Below, piece after piece: positions 31,232 to 35,994 of a stretch of DNA of 64,000 nucleotides (within the stretch, counting starts at the first letter, position 1; the number at the start of each line of letters is the position of its first letter). Below the pieces are notes generated by a model. The model ran no database searches. It was not told the DNA's origin and saw only the letters and a list, made by a program, of their open reading frames with translations. The DNA comes from Prosthecobacter sp. Lineage in GTDB: Bacteria; Verrucomicrobiota; Verrucomicrobiia; Verrucomicrobiales; Verrucomicrobiaceae. The stretch is taken from positions 1 to 64,000 of the forward strand of contig JABARQ010000027.1 in NCBI GenBank assembly GCA_019186985.1, in the 5' to 3' direction. The position numbers and the translations under genes are program-made.

Positions 31232-32092
31232 TCATTTTTTCGTACTCAGCTCACGCATCCATTCACTGGGCGAGCAGCCTTTTTCAGCACGGAAGGCCTG
31301 GCTGAAGTGGCTCAGGCTGCGGTAGCCCACCTCCAGGGCGGCCTCGCTGACGTTCATGCGTCCGGATGACATCCACTCGGCCGCCTTTTCGATCCGCAGC
31401 CGGCGCAGAAACAGGCTGATCGTCATGCCTGCGGCCTCTGAAAAGGTGCGGGACAGATAATGCGGATGACAACCGCAGAGGCGCGCCAGCTCCTCCAGCG
31501 GCGGCGGATTTTCCAGGTCCTGCAGCAGCACCTCGCGCACCTTGGCCACACGGTCGAGCGCCAGGCGCCGGGTGCGTGTGCAGACCGGATCCTCAGCACG
31601 CGTCTCCGCGAACACCTTGCGGAAGAAAAACTCGCTCATGCGGCTGCCTTCAAGCAGCCGCCTGGCCTCGGAACAGAGCGTGGAGGCCATCAGGCCGCGC
31701 GCCCACATCCGGTCCTCGGGCTCGAGCGCACGGCAGATCATGGACGCTGCCGCTTCCTGCGTCAGAAACAGGTCGTGCAGATCCGGGGAAAGCTGGTCCC
31801 TCAGGCCGGCCAGCATGCCCTGAACCCAGGGCACCGGGTAAGAGAGCAGGAGCACCTCGGGATCCGTCCGCCCGATCACTCCACAGCGGTCAGGCCGGCC
31901 TGCGGCCATGCTCAGCCAGGCCAGTTGTCCCGCACGCATCTCCTGCGCCAGCCGCCCCGGCCAGCCAAGCTGCAGCCCGCCCTCCAGCACCAGGACTCCC
32001 AGGATGCGGCCTTCCTTGCAGTCCGACAGCCAGGAGCCTGAACCCCAGGCGTCCCGGCCTAACCAACGGCTCTGAAAATCCGGTGTCTGCAT
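31232..32092 (-). CDS. AraC-family regulator, last gene of the iron/flavin operon
   Basis: This 286-residue protein ends with a clear AraC DNA-binding domain: PPPLEELARLCGCHPHYLSR as the first HTH and EVGYRSLSHFSQAFR as the second. The N-terminal half has no obvious cupin motif but has a ligand-binding-like region. It lies 20 bases downstream of apbE on the same strand, and the iron-linked operon above suggests a PchR-like activator of iron or heme uptake. This role is inference from context. Confidence 0.8.
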   Translation of the reverse strand: MQTPDFQSRWLGRDAWGSGSWLSDCKEGRILGVLVLEGGLQLGWPGRLAQEMRAGQLAWLSMAAGRPDRCGVIGRTDPEVLLLSYPVPWVQGMLAGLRDQLSPDLHDLFLTQEAAASMICRALEPEDRMWARGLMASTLCSEARRLLEGSRMSEFFFRKVFAETRAEDPVCTRTRRLALDRVAKVREVLLQDLENPPPLEELARLCGCHPHYLSRTFSEAAGMTISLFLRRLRIEKAAEWMSSGRMNVSEAALEVGYRSLSHFSQAFRAEKGCSPSEWMRELSTKK

Positions 32093-32112
32093 GACGGGGA
32101 ACCATCCCGGCT

Positions 32113-32985
32113 TCAGGCGGGAAACAACACCTGCTCCCCCTTCGTCGTCAGCAGCAGCGCCACGCTGTCCCGGGCGGCCAGCACCTGGTTCCAGAGCTTC
32201 TGGGGCGCAAGCAGCACGGCCTTCGTCAGGGCGTCCGCCTCGATGCAGGTGCGGGCGAAGACGCTGACGCTCAGGTTGCTCTTCATCGGCCGGCCGGTGC
32301 GTGGATGCATGATGGCGGTGGTTTTTTTCAATCCACCCGCCGCACGCACAAAATAGGCCGCGCTCGTCGCCAGCGCCGGACGCAGCATGACGCCGGGGAC
32401 GGCGGCGCGATGAGGGTCCCTGGGATCACGGATCGCCACCCGGCTGTCGATCCGCCCCAGCACCCGCAGATCGCCGCCCGCGTTCACGATGGCGCCCTCA
32501 AGCCCGAGGGTGCTCAGGTATTCCACCGCCTTGTCCACGGCAAAACCCTTGGCGATGCCGCCCAGGTCCACCTGAAGCGGCCGCCGGAAGGAGACCGCCC
32601 GGCCTCCGTGAAGGTCGATCTCCTCCCAGCGCCCCGCCTCAGCCAGGGAGGTCAGCGAGCCATGCCGTGGCAGCAGGCCGCTGCGCACCAGCCGGGGAGC
32701 CACGGTGATGTCAAAGGCACCCTCGGTCTCGCGGCTGAGCTTCACGGCCTCCTCCAGCACATGGTACGTCCAGGGATGCACCTGAAGCGGTGCCAGGTGG
32801 CCGCATCGGTTCAACCGGCTGATGTCGCTGTCCGGGTCGTGGAAGCTCATCATTCGCTGCACGCAGCGGATCATCTCAAAGGCCTTGCCGGCATGCTGGT
32901 GCAGACGTTCTTCAGCCGCCTTGCCGGTGAGGGTGATCTCCACAAAGGTGCCCAGGAGGGGCTGGCAGCGTTTGATCGTGTTCAT
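32113..32985 (-). CDS. apbE: FAD:protein FMN transferase (ApbE)
   Basis: ApbE covalently attaches FMN from FAD to a Thr/Ser of target proteins. The 290-residue protein has the N-terminal LGTFVEITL, the motif QVDLGGIAKGFAVDKA and the NAGGDLRVLG loop, all typical. The conserved C-terminal stretch GRPMKSNLSVSVFA is present. The start MNTIKRCQPL was chosen to leave 5 bases to the upstream FMN-binding gene. Its target is likely that adjacent FMN-binding protein. No lipobox or signal peptide is evident, so it may act in the cytoplasm or rely on another export route. Confidence 0.92.
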   Translation of the reverse strand: MNTIKRCQPLLGTFVEITLTGKAAEERLHQHAGKAFEMIRCVQRMMSFHDPDSDISRLNRCGHLAPLQVHPWTYHVLEEAVKLSRETEGAFDITVAPRLVRSGLLPRHGSLTSLAEAGRWEEIDLHGGRAVSFRRPLQVDLGGIAKGFAVDKAVEYLSTLGLEGAIVNAGGDLRVLGRIDSRVAIRDPRDPHRAAVPGVMLRPALATSAAYFVRAAGGLKKTTAIMHPRTGRPMKSNLSVSVFARTCIEADALTKAVLLAPQKLWNQVLAARDSVALLLTTKGEQVLFPA

Positions 32986-32990
32986 GGCGG

Positions 32991-33521
32991 TCAGGCGAGA
33001 TGGCGGAGCACCTGCTCCCAGGTGCACACCAGGCGCTTCACGCCCCGCGTGATGCCCTGGCTGCTGAGGGTGGCTCCGGAGATGTTGTCGATGTCCTTGT
33101 GCAGTTTCAGCTTCGAATCCGCCCTCTTGCCCTGGAACTGGCGGCGCCACTCCGGGCTGCGGACTTCATAGCCATAAATTTCCCGGTAGGTCAGGATCTC
33201 GACCCCGCGCACCTCACCCTCGGCATTGATGGCCACGGCGATGTCGATGGCCTCATACCTGCCCATGACCGTGTCAAACACCAGCCAGCTGCCATCTGCG
33301 GCCTTCCAGGCCTGCAGCTCGGCCTTTCCCACTTCCACCCCTGAGGCAGCCTCGATCCGCTTCCTGTCCTTTTTCTCCAGGAAAACCGTGCGTGGCTCAG
33401 CAGCACCAGAAAGCAAAACCGCCCTGGCCTGCTCCCGGCTCAGATAGACCTGCGCGTGCAGCCCTCCTGGTGCCAGAAGCAGGGCAGGCGCAAATTTTTG
33501 AATGAGGCAACGACGGCGCAT
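32991..33521 (-). CDS. FMN-binding domain protein, likely ApbE substrate
   Basis: This 176-residue protein carries an FMN_bind domain of the NqrC/RnfG type. A signal-like N-terminus (FAPALLLAPGGLHAQ) suggests export. The flavinylation motif is SGAT with Thr151, in DIDNISGATLSS, which fits the consensus [ST]GAT for covalent FMN attachment. FDTVMGRYEAIDIAVAIN and EVRGVEILTYREIYGYEV match the domain. It probably transfers electrons with bound FMN in the periplasm. A Fur-like box pair lies directly upstream. Confidence 0.85.
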   Translation of the reverse strand: MRRRCLIQKFAPALLLAPGGLHAQVYLSREQARAVLLSGAAEPRTVFLEKKDRKRIEAASGVEVGKAELQAWKAADGSWLVFDTVMGRYEAIDIAVAINAEGEVRGVEILTYREIYGYEVRSPEWRRQFQGKRADSKLKLHKDIDNISGATLSSQGITRGVKRLVCTWEQVLRHLA

Positions 33522-33532
33522 GGTGACCTAAA

Positions 33533-33569
33533 CGAGAAATAATCTCACTACATATGAAAATGAATCTCA
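33533..33569 (-). promoter_or_regulatory. Two tandem Fur-like boxes upstream of the FMN-binding gene
   Basis: Two 7-1-7 sites at 33533-33547 and 33555-33569 share the half-site AATCTCA and are centred 22 bp apart. On the minus strand they read TGAGATTATTTCTCG and TGAGATTCATTTTCA, the second very close to the Fur consensus. They lie 12 to 48 bases upstream of the FMN-binding gene start. Confidence 0.55.
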
Positions 33570-33664
33570 ATTGCTATGAATCAAGCGCTTTCTTTGACGA
33601 TGAATTGCGATTTTGACGCCTGTCCTTCTCCTTCCCTTTTTACCCTCAGGAAGTGCGGACGAAG

Positions 33665-33692
33665 CCCCCGGCCGCCTCGTGGCGGCCGGGGG
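33665..33692 (-). terminator. GC-rich hairpin after the TonB receptor gene
   Basis: CCCCCGGCCGCC at 33665-33676 pairs perfectly with GGCGGCCGGGGG at 33681-33692 around TCGT, 22 bases after the receptor stop. No T-tract follows, so it is a terminator-like hairpin of uncertain efficiency. Confidence 0.5.
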
Positions 33693-33714
33693 AGATGCAA
33701 AAGCAATCCCGAGA

Positions 33715-35994
33715 TCAGAACCTCACCGTCACGGCCACACGACCATTGATGCCTGGCTGCGTGAACTGGTCCAGACGGTCGCTCGTCGGTGCCTGCCCCC
33801 GCACATCCTGGTAGAGCCACATCTTCTGATGGGTCAGGTTGTAGAGGCCGGCGGTGAGGGAGACATTGCGCGAGATGTCCCAGCGCCCGATGAGGTCCAC
33901 CACATAAGCGCTCGGCGTTTCAAACTGCGTCGTGCTGTCGGCAACCCGGTTCTGACCGGCATAATAAGTGCCGACCAGCTCCACCGTCACCTTGTCACGA
34001 CGATAGCGCAGACCGGTCACGAGCTTGAGCGGGTCGATGGAGTTGAGCGGCTGGTCGTTCTGGTCATCCCATCCCTGCTGCCATCCCAGGTTGCCGAAGA
34101 GGCTGACGTTGCTCAGCGCCTCATTCACGAAGTCGAGCGAGGCCTCGCCCTTGAACTCGACACCATAAATCTCGGCGGAGGAAAGGTTGCGGCTCTGGAA
34201 GATGAGAGGGTCGCCGGGAGCCCCCGTGCCACCGACGCCGGCGAAGAGCTCGATGAAGTCCTCGTAGTAGTTGTAGAAGCCTGCGAGGCTCCAGGAGCGC
34301 CGCTCATGGTTGCCGCGAAGGCCAAGCTCAAAGCTGTGGCTGACCTCGTTCTGCAGCCCGGGATTCGGGATGGTCTGGTAGTTGAAGGCCAGGTTGGTCA
34401 CCGTGGCGTTCAGGTCCTCCGGCGTTGGATTGCGGAAGCCCATGCTGTATTGGAACCAGGCGCTGTGATGGTCGTCCAGCTTGGTCAGGAAGCCCAGCTT
34501 CGGCGCCACGGCGACCTGATCGTAGTCCTGCGGACGAAGGCCGCCGCTGGCGCGCAGATACAGGTCGTCGGCATCCGTCGTCACTTCGTAATAATCGAAC
34601 CGGATGCCGGGCGTCAGCGTGTAGCGGTCATTGTCTCCCCAGGTGATCTGATCCTGGATGTAAAGGCCCGCACGCAGCGTGGTGCTGTCCGGCATGTCCT
34701 TCAGCGGGAAGGTGTCCGGGCTGATGACGTTCGTGCTCGTGCCGGTGGTGAAGTTGAACTCACGGGCGTCACGCACACGACGGCTGAAGCTGCGGATCAG
34801 CTCGCCGCCATAGCTGAGCTGATGCCTGAAGCGCCCCGTCTCAAACTCGCTCACCAGGTTCAGCGCAGCGCCCAGGTGGTTCTGGGAAAAGAGATGGTCG
34901 CGCACCCGGAACCGGTCCTGCGCCGTCGGCAGCACTCGGTCGCGATCCTCGTCGATGTGCTCGGTCGTGCGGCTGTCCTGATAATAGATGTTCCAGTCCA
35001 GCCGGTCGAAGAACAGGCCGAGGTCGCTGGCGTCAAACTGATGCCCGAGGCTGACACGGTAGCGGGTGACCTCGTCGTCGAGCAGCAGCTCGCTCACCCG
35101 GAAGACAGAGGGGCCGGACACCACGTTGCGGCGGGAGCTCACCAGATCGTTCTCACTCGTGCGCTCAAAGAACTCGCCGGTGAGCTTGAAGGTGTTCCGG
35201 TCGTCCGGACGCCAGACCAGCTTGCCCAGCCAGTTGTGGCTCTCCCAGTCCATCGGATCCGGCGCATAACCACCCCGGTTGTCCATCTCCTGCCCCTGGC
35301 GGTAGGTGTAGAGCAGCATCATCTCGACCGGCCCGCCACGCACGGCCCCGGCGATGGTCTGGCCCAGGCTTTCATCCATGCCCTGGTAGCGGCTGACGGA
35401 TTCAAAACCCCAGTCATTGCCGTCGTCGCCGATGATGTCGGAGGGATCCTTGGTGACAAAGGAGACCACACCGCCCAGGGCGTCGCTGCCATACAGGGAC
35501 GAGGCCGAACCCTTGACGACCTCGACCCGCTTCAGCGCGTCCACATCCAGATAATCACGCCCGACGCTCGTCGTGCCGCCAAAGGTGAAAAGGTCGCCCT
35601 GGCGGATGCCGTCGACCTGCATGAGCACACGGTTGCCGTCAAGACCGCGGATGTTGATGCCCTGGGTGCCGCTGCGGCTGTTGCGTCCCGGTCCCTGGCC
35701 GCCGACACCGAAAGGCAGGCTCACACCGGGCTCGTAGCGCTGATAGTCACGCATCGAAGTGCCGAGCGTGAAGATGCTGTCATTGGCGTCCAGCACGGCC
35801 GTGGAGGCCGCGACATCCTGCGTCCTCCTTTCCGTGCGCGTCGCCACAACGATGATTTCCGGCACCAACTCCGCCGAGGCGCCGGCGGCAATGGTGGCGC
35901 TGTCCTGCGCGGGCTTGGTGGCGGCTTCCTGCTGCGCGAAGACGGAACCTGTCAGCAGGCAGAGGAGAGGAAGAAGAGGCGGGTGTTTTTTCAT
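33715..35994 (-). CDS. TonB-dependent outer-membrane receptor (heme type)
   Basis: This 759-residue receptor begins with a signal peptide (MKKHPPLLPLLCLLTGSVFAQQ). It has a plug domain with IIVVATRTER, INIRGLDGNRVLMQVDG, VEVVKGSASSLYGSDALGG, and a C-terminal beta-barrel ending in aromatic Phe (VAVTVRF). The stretches YSMGFRNPTPEDLN and IPNPGLQNE match the FRAP- and NPxL-type motifs of heme/hemoglobin receptors. It probably imports heme or a similar iron source through TonB. The start was placed at the signal peptide. It is upstream of the FMN-binding/apbE/AraC genes on the same strand. Confidence 0.85.
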   Translation of the reverse strand: MKKHPPLLPLLCLLTGSVFAQQEAATKPAQDSATIAAGASAELVPEIIVVATRTERRTQDVAASTAVLDANDSIFTLGTSMRDYQRYEPGVSLPFGVGGQGPGRNSRSGTQGINIRGLDGNRVLMQVDGIRQGDLFTFGGTTSVGRDYLDVDALKRVEVVKGSASSLYGSDALGGVVSFVTKDPSDIIGDDGNDWGFESVSRYQGMDESLGQTIAGAVRGGPVEMMLLYTYRQGQEMDNRGGYAPDPMDWESHNWLGKLVWRPDDRNTFKLTGEFFERTSENDLVSSRRNVVSGPSVFRVSELLLDDEVTRYRVSLGHQFDASDLGLFFDRLDWNIYYQDSRTTEHIDEDRDRVLPTAQDRFRVRDHLFSQNHLGAALNLVSEFETGRFRHQLSYGGELIRSFSRRVRDAREFNFTTGTSTNVISPDTFPLKDMPDSTTLRAGLYIQDQITWGDNDRYTLTPGIRFDYYEVTTDADDLYLRASGGLRPQDYDQVAVAPKLGFLTKLDDHHSAWFQYSMGFRNPTPEDLNATVTNLAFNYQTIPNPGLQNEVSHSFELGLRGNHERRSWSLAGFYNYYEDFIELFAGVGGTGAPGDPLIFQSRNLSSAEIYGVEFKGEASLDFVNEALSNVSLFGNLGWQQGWDDQNDQPLNSIDPLKLVTGLRYRRDKVTVELVGTYYAGQNRVADSTTQFETPSAYVVDLIGRWDISRNVSLTAGLYNLTHQKMWLYQDVRGQAPTSDRLDQFTQPGINGRVAVTVRF

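Follow-up and report, generated by a model that had tools for sequence, protein, structure and literature searches.

A putative Fur-regulated FMN_bind-ApbE gene cluster with an altered, signal-less ApbE-family protein in Prosthecobacter and its relatives

We have analyzed a locus of four genes in a 64,000-nucleotide stretch of the genome of Prosthecobacter sp. (GenBank assembly GCA_019186985.1, contig JABARQ010000027.1, positions 1 to 64,000), which in its full length is here called the window. The locus encodes a TonB-dependent receptor, a small FMN_bind protein (FMN, flavin mononucleotide), an ApbE-family protein and an AraC-family regulator. Conservation of the FMN_bind and ApbE genes, Fur-type sites at the head of the cluster, the absence of an export signal from ApbE and altered residues in that protein can all be read in the sequence. 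Our interpretation, to which we give a probability of roughly 0.55, is that the locus is a Fur-repressed iron-assimilation module built on the FMN_bind protein as a flavin electron carrier. An earlier note on this locus had proposed a periplasmic flavin-based reductase coupled to heme or iron uptake, with its own regulator; the present analysis suggests that it was right in outline about an iron-linked flavin redox function, and that its heme claim is unproven and probably wrong. The note does not mention the Fur-like site, the twin-arginine-like start of the FMN_bind protein, or the missing signal peptide and altered active site of ApbE.

Results

A profile search of genome contigs, for which four FMN proteins were aligned, identified 36 loci in Verrucomicrobiota and Proteobacteria, the neighbours of which were compared by a six-frame scan over flanks of unequal length. 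It should be noted that the loci were chosen by their FMN peptides and that only near relatives of the window FMN protein were recovered; because the choice was made on these peptides, the partner genes are not circular evidence. ApbE was found directly or closely downstream of FMN_bind in all 36 loci, with the ApbE gene incomplete in L025 and L041. In 32 of them ApbE is followed by a small cytochrome-b-like gene, which is missing from L024 and L053, and from L025 and L041, where the sequence ends. Upstream of FMN_bind there is an outer-membrane barrel or porin in 33/36 loci (a DUF6662-type barrel in eight, a porin in 25, and neither in L024, L049, and L050), and a MauG/MbnH-type di-heme gene usually precedes the porin (24/36). 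The cytochrome label is used because one member (P0005) passes the cytochrome b561 cut-off (31.1 bits, cut-off 30.1) and because four His residues are invariant in 12 out of 12 aligned rows; P0005 scored 21.7 bits against DUF4405 (cut-off 26.7), and three further members that were scanned reached no heme-family cut-off. The ancestral unit would have been an outer-membrane barrel, FMN_bind, ApbE, and cytochrome b, in this order.

We compared 387 genomes drawn from the phylum with the FMN alignment, and 18 of them gave a match at E <= 1e-12. Among the four strongest besides the window genome itself, three carry the order barrel-FMN-ApbE-cytochrome, and in one only FMN-ApbE was seen within 3.5 kb; most of the 13 weaker matches have a porin before FMN_bind, and several continue with PepSY and with an ApbE that, where seen, is of the exported type. 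Plasmid records contributed five more loci, in Novosphingobium, Sphingomonas, Methylocystis, Bradyrhizobium, and Ideonella, with the order FMN_bind, ApbE, cytochrome-b-like gene. The Sphingomonas set has DUF6662 upstream, and upstream of the Ideonella set, two genes away, is a cytochrome c peroxidase gene. The cytochrome gene is called a "hypothetical protein" in four annotated plasmid records, and in search listings of the open-licence PMC literature we found no description of the FMN_bind/DUF6662 cluster or of the lysine-type ApbE subfamily described below. Two local variants were also seen: a small gene resembling a four-helix bundle (by eye) lies between FMN_bind and ApbE in a Phragmitibacter metagenome-assembled genome (MAG; L027:8299-8655), and multicopper oxidase and ferritin-like genes follow the cluster on the Methylocystis heyeri plasmid (L161:7861-9542).

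Fur-type sites were scored with a 17-base Fur consensus over the 150 bases before the cluster head and up to 30 bases inside it, and the upstream regions of the remaining genes in these loci and in the window served as controls. Heads were counted in 31 of the 36 loci, with L026, L041, L044, L045, and L047 left out as the head gene was cut or its start missing, and with the window excluded. A score of 12 or more out of 16 was reached by 19/31 cluster heads and by 2/337 control regions, and a score of 11 or more by 23/31 heads and 19/337 controls; when seven heads from near relatives were dropped, 14/24 reached 12 or more. In the window the putative site lies on the minus strand at 33554-33570, directly before FMN_bind and 32 bases from its start codon, with AATTGAGATTCATTTTCAT as the surrounding minus-strand sequence. 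It scores 12 of 16, the best in the 64 kb, with the next five places at 11, and with a 19-base consensus its score is 13, exceeded at one other place (21684, 14 matches). Brevifollis has the core of this site unchanged ahead of FMN_bind; single-base variants of it precede the barrel in the LacPavin MAG and AraC in G020. The window genome (5.9 Mb in 55 contigs, 96% complete) encodes FeoB, TatC, and three Fur-family (PF01475) proteins, which were not told apart from Zur and PerR types; the site together with these genes fits a Fur regulon, and it is probably of Fur type. Iron genes also neighbour the cluster in Noviherbaspirillum autotrophicum (L043:10910-13117), where FeoA-FeoB lies about 140 bases downstream of FMN_bind-ApbE-cytochrome b, and in the LacPavin MAG, where ferritin, a second TonB receptor and a PhuR-like receptor flank it. 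In the Burkholderiales (L032, L034-L044, L046-L048, and L051-L059) the cluster opens with a MauG/MbnH-like di-heme gene, the product of which looks by eye like a lipoprotein, and with a Porin_O_P-type barrel, and most of the heads have Fur-type sites, those of Ralstonia being weak and L041, L044, and L047 falling outside the scored set; the di-heme protein and barrel are a possible outer-membrane electron conduit for iron starvation.

The FMN_bind protein (32991-33521, minus strand; 176 residues) is a predicted exported flavoprotein, which scores 45.4 bits against PF04205 (cut-off 22). Its AlphaFold2 model, made with a 38-row alignment, has a pLDDT (predicted local distance difference test) of 89.1, and the nearest solved folds are RnfG (PDB 8ahx; Z 15.3, root mean square deviation 2.0 over 133 residues) and NqrC (Z 12.5). 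The SGAT flavinylation motif, with Thr151 as the predicted acceptor, is present at 33069-33080 (minus strand), as the earlier note had said, and [ST]GAT is found in 38/38 rows of an alignment that includes the window and omits the FMN proteins of L035, L047, L049, and L092; among the plasmid relatives 4/5 have it, Sphingomonas having SGGT. With RnfG and NqrC the protein shares the fold and the SGAT threonine; it differs in scoring far under the cut-offs of their models (RnfG 35.4 bits, cut-off 102; nqrC 23.2 bits, cut-off 144) and in having no Rnf or Nqr genes beside it. The protein starts with MRRRCLIQKF, a match by regular expression to a twin-arginine translocation (Tat)-like RRxLIxK pattern, and the inferred Tat-like signal sequence, MRRRCLIQKFAPALLLAPGGLHA, would comprise residues 1-23 (33453-33521, minus strand) with a guessed cleavage site. 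Such Tat-like starts occur in 8/38 FMN proteins, i.e., those of the window, of L024-L028 (RRxLI in L024-L026, KRxLL or KRxFL in L027 and L028), and of two Lysobacterales loci. We rejected a general link between a Tat signal in the FMN protein and the lack of a signal in ApbE, as ApbE is signal-less in 36/36 loci and the Tat-like start is found in 8/38 proteins. Two FMN_bind genes in tandem, both with the [ST]GAT motif, were found in L033 (8923-10083). The sole other FMN_bind protein of the window genome at E <= 0.001 has 574 residues and two FMN_bind domains (contig C5 of the genome; L086:6717-8441), no ApbE was found on its contig, and frames of similar length with weak FMN_bind matches occur in four other genomes of the genus.

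The ApbE-family protein (32113-32985, minus strand; 290 residues) scores 180.7 bits against PF02424 (cut-off 25.6), and neither an export signal nor a lipobox was seen in it by sequence and hydropathy. In none of the 36 loci does the reading frame ahead of the first conserved ApbE motif contain a strongly hydrophobic stretch; the highest 12-residue Kyte-Doolittle mean is 1.5, where the frame overlaps the FMN gene. A tree of 46 ApbEs groups the 38 cluster rows in a single clade with 100/100 support, with long branches among the outsiders. Residues were compared between 40 family rows (L041 was omitted as too short and L025 replaced by the piece L088) and 57 other ApbEs, which came from the window genome and its phylum only, and of which three have no residue at the sites, leaving 54. 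In Vibrio cholerae ApbE, His257 is described as "absolutely conserved", the exchange H257G nearly abolishes transfer, and catalysis is magnesium-dependent (PMC5655446); the proposed triad is Asp285-Ser241-His257 (PMC12052999). At the position of His257 the larger alignment has a residue other than His in 39/40 family rows (Ala 22, Pro 9, Ser 4, Gly 2, Gln 1, and Val 1, with only L028 keeping His) and His in 53/54 controls; a first, smaller alignment gave 36 rows with another residue and three gaps. In the window it is Ala224 (codon 32314-32316, minus strand), where the reading is clear (TTAIMHPRTG vs. YSHIIDPTTG), and in several Burkholderiales, where the His-bearing loop is short or changed, the His position is less sure. 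The Ser of the triad is kept in 39/40 family rows.

The second altered position concerns the metal. In Escherichia coli ApbE metal site 1 is bound by T284 OG1 and D280 (PMC4767422). The position of this Thr, four residues after the Asp, is Lys in 40/40 family rows and Thr in 54/54 controls, and the Asp itself is kept in 40/40 family rows and in 49/54 controls, with Gly in the other five; in the window these residues are Lys255 (codon 32221-32223, minus strand) and Asp251. Plasmid ApbEs have the Lys in 5/5 and, at the His position, Ala, Ala, Gly, and Arg in the four that were aligned, L159 having been read by eye. Directly before the Lys, 37/40 family rows have Thr, and the first 37 controls have mostly Ala (24) or Ser (9). 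For Listeria FmnB, Asp301 and Ser304 are reported to be the residues used in the complex with flavin adenine dinucleotide (FAD), Ser304 standing directly before Thr305, and alanine substitutions there strongly lower activity or abolish it (PMC8906456). This use of Ser304 implies that the Thr three residues after the Asp of the lysine-type ApbE could hold a metal, so that the Lys need not take the place of one. With the catalytic His and the metal-ligand Thr both gone, the window ApbE should not be classed as a canonical flavin transferase. The invariant Lys and the retained Asp and Ser argue for an altered chemistry rather than decay, but one of the four other ApbEs of the genome could flavinylate the substrate instead. 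An association of His loss with the missing signal peptide alone was rejected, since three controls that are signal-less by eye (L023, L144, and L145) keep both His and Thr. A second ApbE without a visible signal is present in the window genome (contig C4; L019:227-2400), which keeps the catalytic His and has Gly at the position of Asp285, and a neighbour of which presumably belongs to DUF3570.

All four genes of the locus lie on the minus strand, in the order that the earlier note had given, and the family scores confirm them. The gaps are 193 bases between receptor and FMN_bind, five between FMN_bind and ApbE, and 20 between ApbE and AraC, the last two as in the note. The AraC-family regulator (31232-32092, minus strand; 286 residues) has a C-terminal HTH domain that matches HTH_18 at 76.6 bits, above the curated cut-off; its model is weak (pLDDT 66), and structural matches to ToxT, Rns, and AraC lead only to the label "AraC-type". 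Homologues with 57, 63, and 55% identity are present in L024, L087, and L088, and the six-frame scan did not find the gene at the 35 loci of the set of 36 other than L024. The window order of receptor, Fur-type site, FMN, ApbE, and AraC can be compared with that of Brevifollis (Fur-type site, FMN, ApbE, and AraC, with no receptor found) and of G020, a 68% complete genome with receptor, Fur-type site, and AraC in which the FMN gene was not found. In the LacPavin MAG (G024) a PhuR-like receptor, ferritin, a TonB receptor, and barrel-FMN-ApbE run to the contig end, with the PhuR-like receptor about 3.8 kb from the FMN gene, and a second, presumably adjacent contig starts inside ApbE and continues with cytochrome b and AraC. 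These arrangements indicate that AraC belongs with the unit in the genus, and to that extent they support the earlier note. The line of the window and Brevifollis has probably lost both barrel and cytochrome b.

Discussion

In the mechanism that we propose, iron limitation would lead to production of the small FMN_bind protein, which would receive covalent FMN on Thr151 and be taken to the periplasm, probably folded and via Tat in the window lineage. Its electrons would then pass to ferric iron or to a ferric chelate imported by a receptor, and Fe(II) would enter the cell via FeoB. The neighbouring ApbE-family protein would probably be the dedicated loader and, as it has no export signal, would act before export of its substrate; the AraC protein would be a further activator, probably responsive to a ligand. 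Of these steps the reduction of iron, the loading of flavin before export, and the role of AraC are our inference. The earlier proposal of a flavin reductase coupled to heme or iron is supported in so far as the predicted exported flavoprotein is tied to iron by the Fur-type site, by the conserved pair, and by FeoAB, ferritin, or TonB neighbours in some relatives. More tentative, and to our mind doubtful, is the idea that the neighbouring protein is a lysine-type cytosolic transferase, with Lys at the magnesium-ligand position, perhaps in place of one magnesium ion, and the base His gone, which would attach FMN before export, with folded export by Tat in Verrucomicrobiaceae-type lineages. If true, this would be the reverse of the usual order, in which export comes first and flavinylation is periplasmic. 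A subfamily that is still paired with an SGAT substrate across two phyla would also test which residues flavinylation needs, and the lysine-type ApbE could become a new tool for the flavin tagging of proteins. Taken as a whole, the cluster suggests that Burkholderiales and Verrucomicrobiota have a Fur-regulated route of iron reduction.

The nearest iron-regulated analogue is the DUF2271-DUF4198-ApbE set of Caulobacter (CC_3060-CC_3062 with CC_3063), which is tabled as iron-responsive and Fur-regulated (PMC3751524). These and PepSY-like systems likewise place ApbE beside an exported flavinylation substrate, are iron-regulated, and have been proposed to serve assimilatory iron reduction, whereas here the substrate is FMN_bind, the genome has no PepSY_TM, and the ApbE is altered and signal-less; by analogy the window pair resembles the assimilatory flavin systems and is not a PepSY-type member. 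Meheust et al. (2021; PMC8238504) kept clusters with at least one target gene with a predicted signal and described VIT1-associated, P19-associated, and PepSY systems, and clusters of the FMN_bind/DUF6662 type may be among the supplementary sets of that paper. A small membrane b-type cytochrome adjoins apbE also in the apbE-DUF4405 systems of Huang et al. (2024; PMC11334425), in which the cytochromes have six helices and flavinylated Flavodoxin_4 genes are often in the cluster; the cytochrome of our cluster is shorter and goes with FMN_bind, and none was found in the window genome. With the ApbE/Ftp transferases of V. cholerae, E. coli, Treponema pallidum, and Listeria monocytogenes (FmnB) the window protein shares PF02424 and the Asp and Ser of the triad, but the equivalent of His257 is lost, the metal-ligand Thr is Lys, and no lipobox or signal was seen. 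A cytosolic location has precedents: the Paracoccus ApbE is predicted to be cytoplasmic (PMC7660919), and the Klebsiella ApbE, also without a signal peptide, acts in the cytosol on a soluble fumarate reductase (PMC12052999), whereas the window substrate carries a predicted export signal.

Several observations weigh against an iron-assimilation module. Eight of the 31 scored heads remain below 11 of 16, i.e., three from Ralstonia and those of L027, L028, L030, and L050 at 10 and that of L033 at 9 (in L033 a site scoring 13 lies further upstream than the scored region), and among the four annotated heads on plasmids the scores are 8, 9, 10, and 11, the last in Ideonella alone. TonB receptors are near only 4/36 loci, given flanks of unequal length. 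FMN proteins without the Tat-like start look Sec-type, although their ApbE is also signal-less, and the window ApbE is without the residues that characterised enzymes need. A cytochrome b of the cluster family was not matched in the window genome or in Brevifollis, a DUF6662 barrel was not found in the 96% complete window genome, and PepSY_TM (PF03929) had zero matches there; other donor types were not searched, and no electron path emerged. These absences would fit a remnant, i.e., an FMN_bind-ApbE pair that no longer acts as a reductase and stands beside an unrelated receptor and AraC after loss of the barrel and cytochrome b. The patchy occurrence of the FMN gene, with a close homologue in four of 56 genomes (the window's own included), and the state of G020, which keeps receptor, Fur-type site, and AraC, point the same way. 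We consider this unlikely: the frames are open without stops, the Fur-type site is kept, other electron donors are possible, and identity to Brevifollis is 73% for the FMN protein and 86% for ApbE with the motif residues kept, though Brevifollis is also without barrel and cytochrome b. The altered ApbE allows a further reading, in which it is a pseudo-enzyme or an FAD-binding helper and another, exported ApbE flavinylates the FMN protein in the periplasm. Both the nearly universal loss of the catalytic His together with the consistent replacement of the metal-ligand Thr, and the behaviour of the V. cholerae H257G variant, speak for it, as do four other ApbE genes in the window genome, at least two of them with export signals by eye, beside a signal-less window ApbE. 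Yet the Ser241 and Asp285 equivalents are kept and the Lys is invariant across two phyla, unlike decay, FMN_bind and ApbE are paired without exception in the 36 loci, and loss of a triad residue need not mean inactivity, five controls having Gly at the Asp; we hold the pseudo-enzyme to be possible but doubtful. The claim that this ApbE is the likely transferase of the FMN protein has to be taken with caution, as the protein is without the catalytic His and the metal-ligand Thr of characterised enzymes.

The reading of the earlier note, in which the receptor imports heme and the FMN protein is a reductase of the periplasm linked to this uptake, all in one locus under common control, appears to us highly unlikely. 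The receptor (33715-35994, minus strand; 759 residues, with a signal sequence by eye and, from Pfam ranges, a plug at 58-176 and a barrel at 264-720) does score above the heme-receptor-type cut-offs invoked in its favour (TIGR01786, 361 bits, cut-off 324; TIGR01785, 328.5 bits, cut-off 317), and its best solved relative by sequence is Pseudomonas aeruginosa PhuR (PDB 8the, E 2.8e-94). It is adjacent to the FMN gene on the same strand, and the two are also near each other in the LacPavin MAG. Against this, H137 and Y532 of the PhuR chain, which by offset are mature His124 and Tyr519 and which we take to be the heme ligands, correspond to Gly and Asn529 in the window receptor; nine other relatives, those with the plug region read, keep the plug Gly, and L063 shares the Asn. 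Heme receptors are described in a review as having His128, His461, FRAP, and NPNL (PMC6449446), and the window receptor has the degenerate motifs FRNP and NPGL with no His between them. Its upstream region has no Fur-type site, the best score being 8 of 16 and background-like. Across 56 genomes, the window's own included, the receptor was found in 14, a close FMN homologue in four, and both in two; 12 of the 14 receptor genomes, some of them incomplete, are thus without a close FMN homologue, and two of the four FMN-gene genomes are without the receptor at E <= 1e-60. It should be noted that 10 of the 56 genomes match the FMN query, six of them being weak matches to other FMN_bind proteins. 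Since the ligand positions are changed and receptor and FMN gene rarely co-occur, the link to heme is weak; comparison of gene order, which the earlier note had named as a check, shows the receptor and the FMN gene to be mostly unlinked and FMN_bind and ApbE to be always together in the 36 loci.

The genes that flank the locus in the window appear by eye to be HflK/HflC-like, dehydrogenase E1-like, serine-hydrolase-like, and sulfatase-like, and no link to iron was seen among them. Several members of the genus (L062, L063, L064, L065, and L071) have a kelch-like gene (by eye) upstream of the PhuR-like receptor and divergent from it, which is absent from the window.

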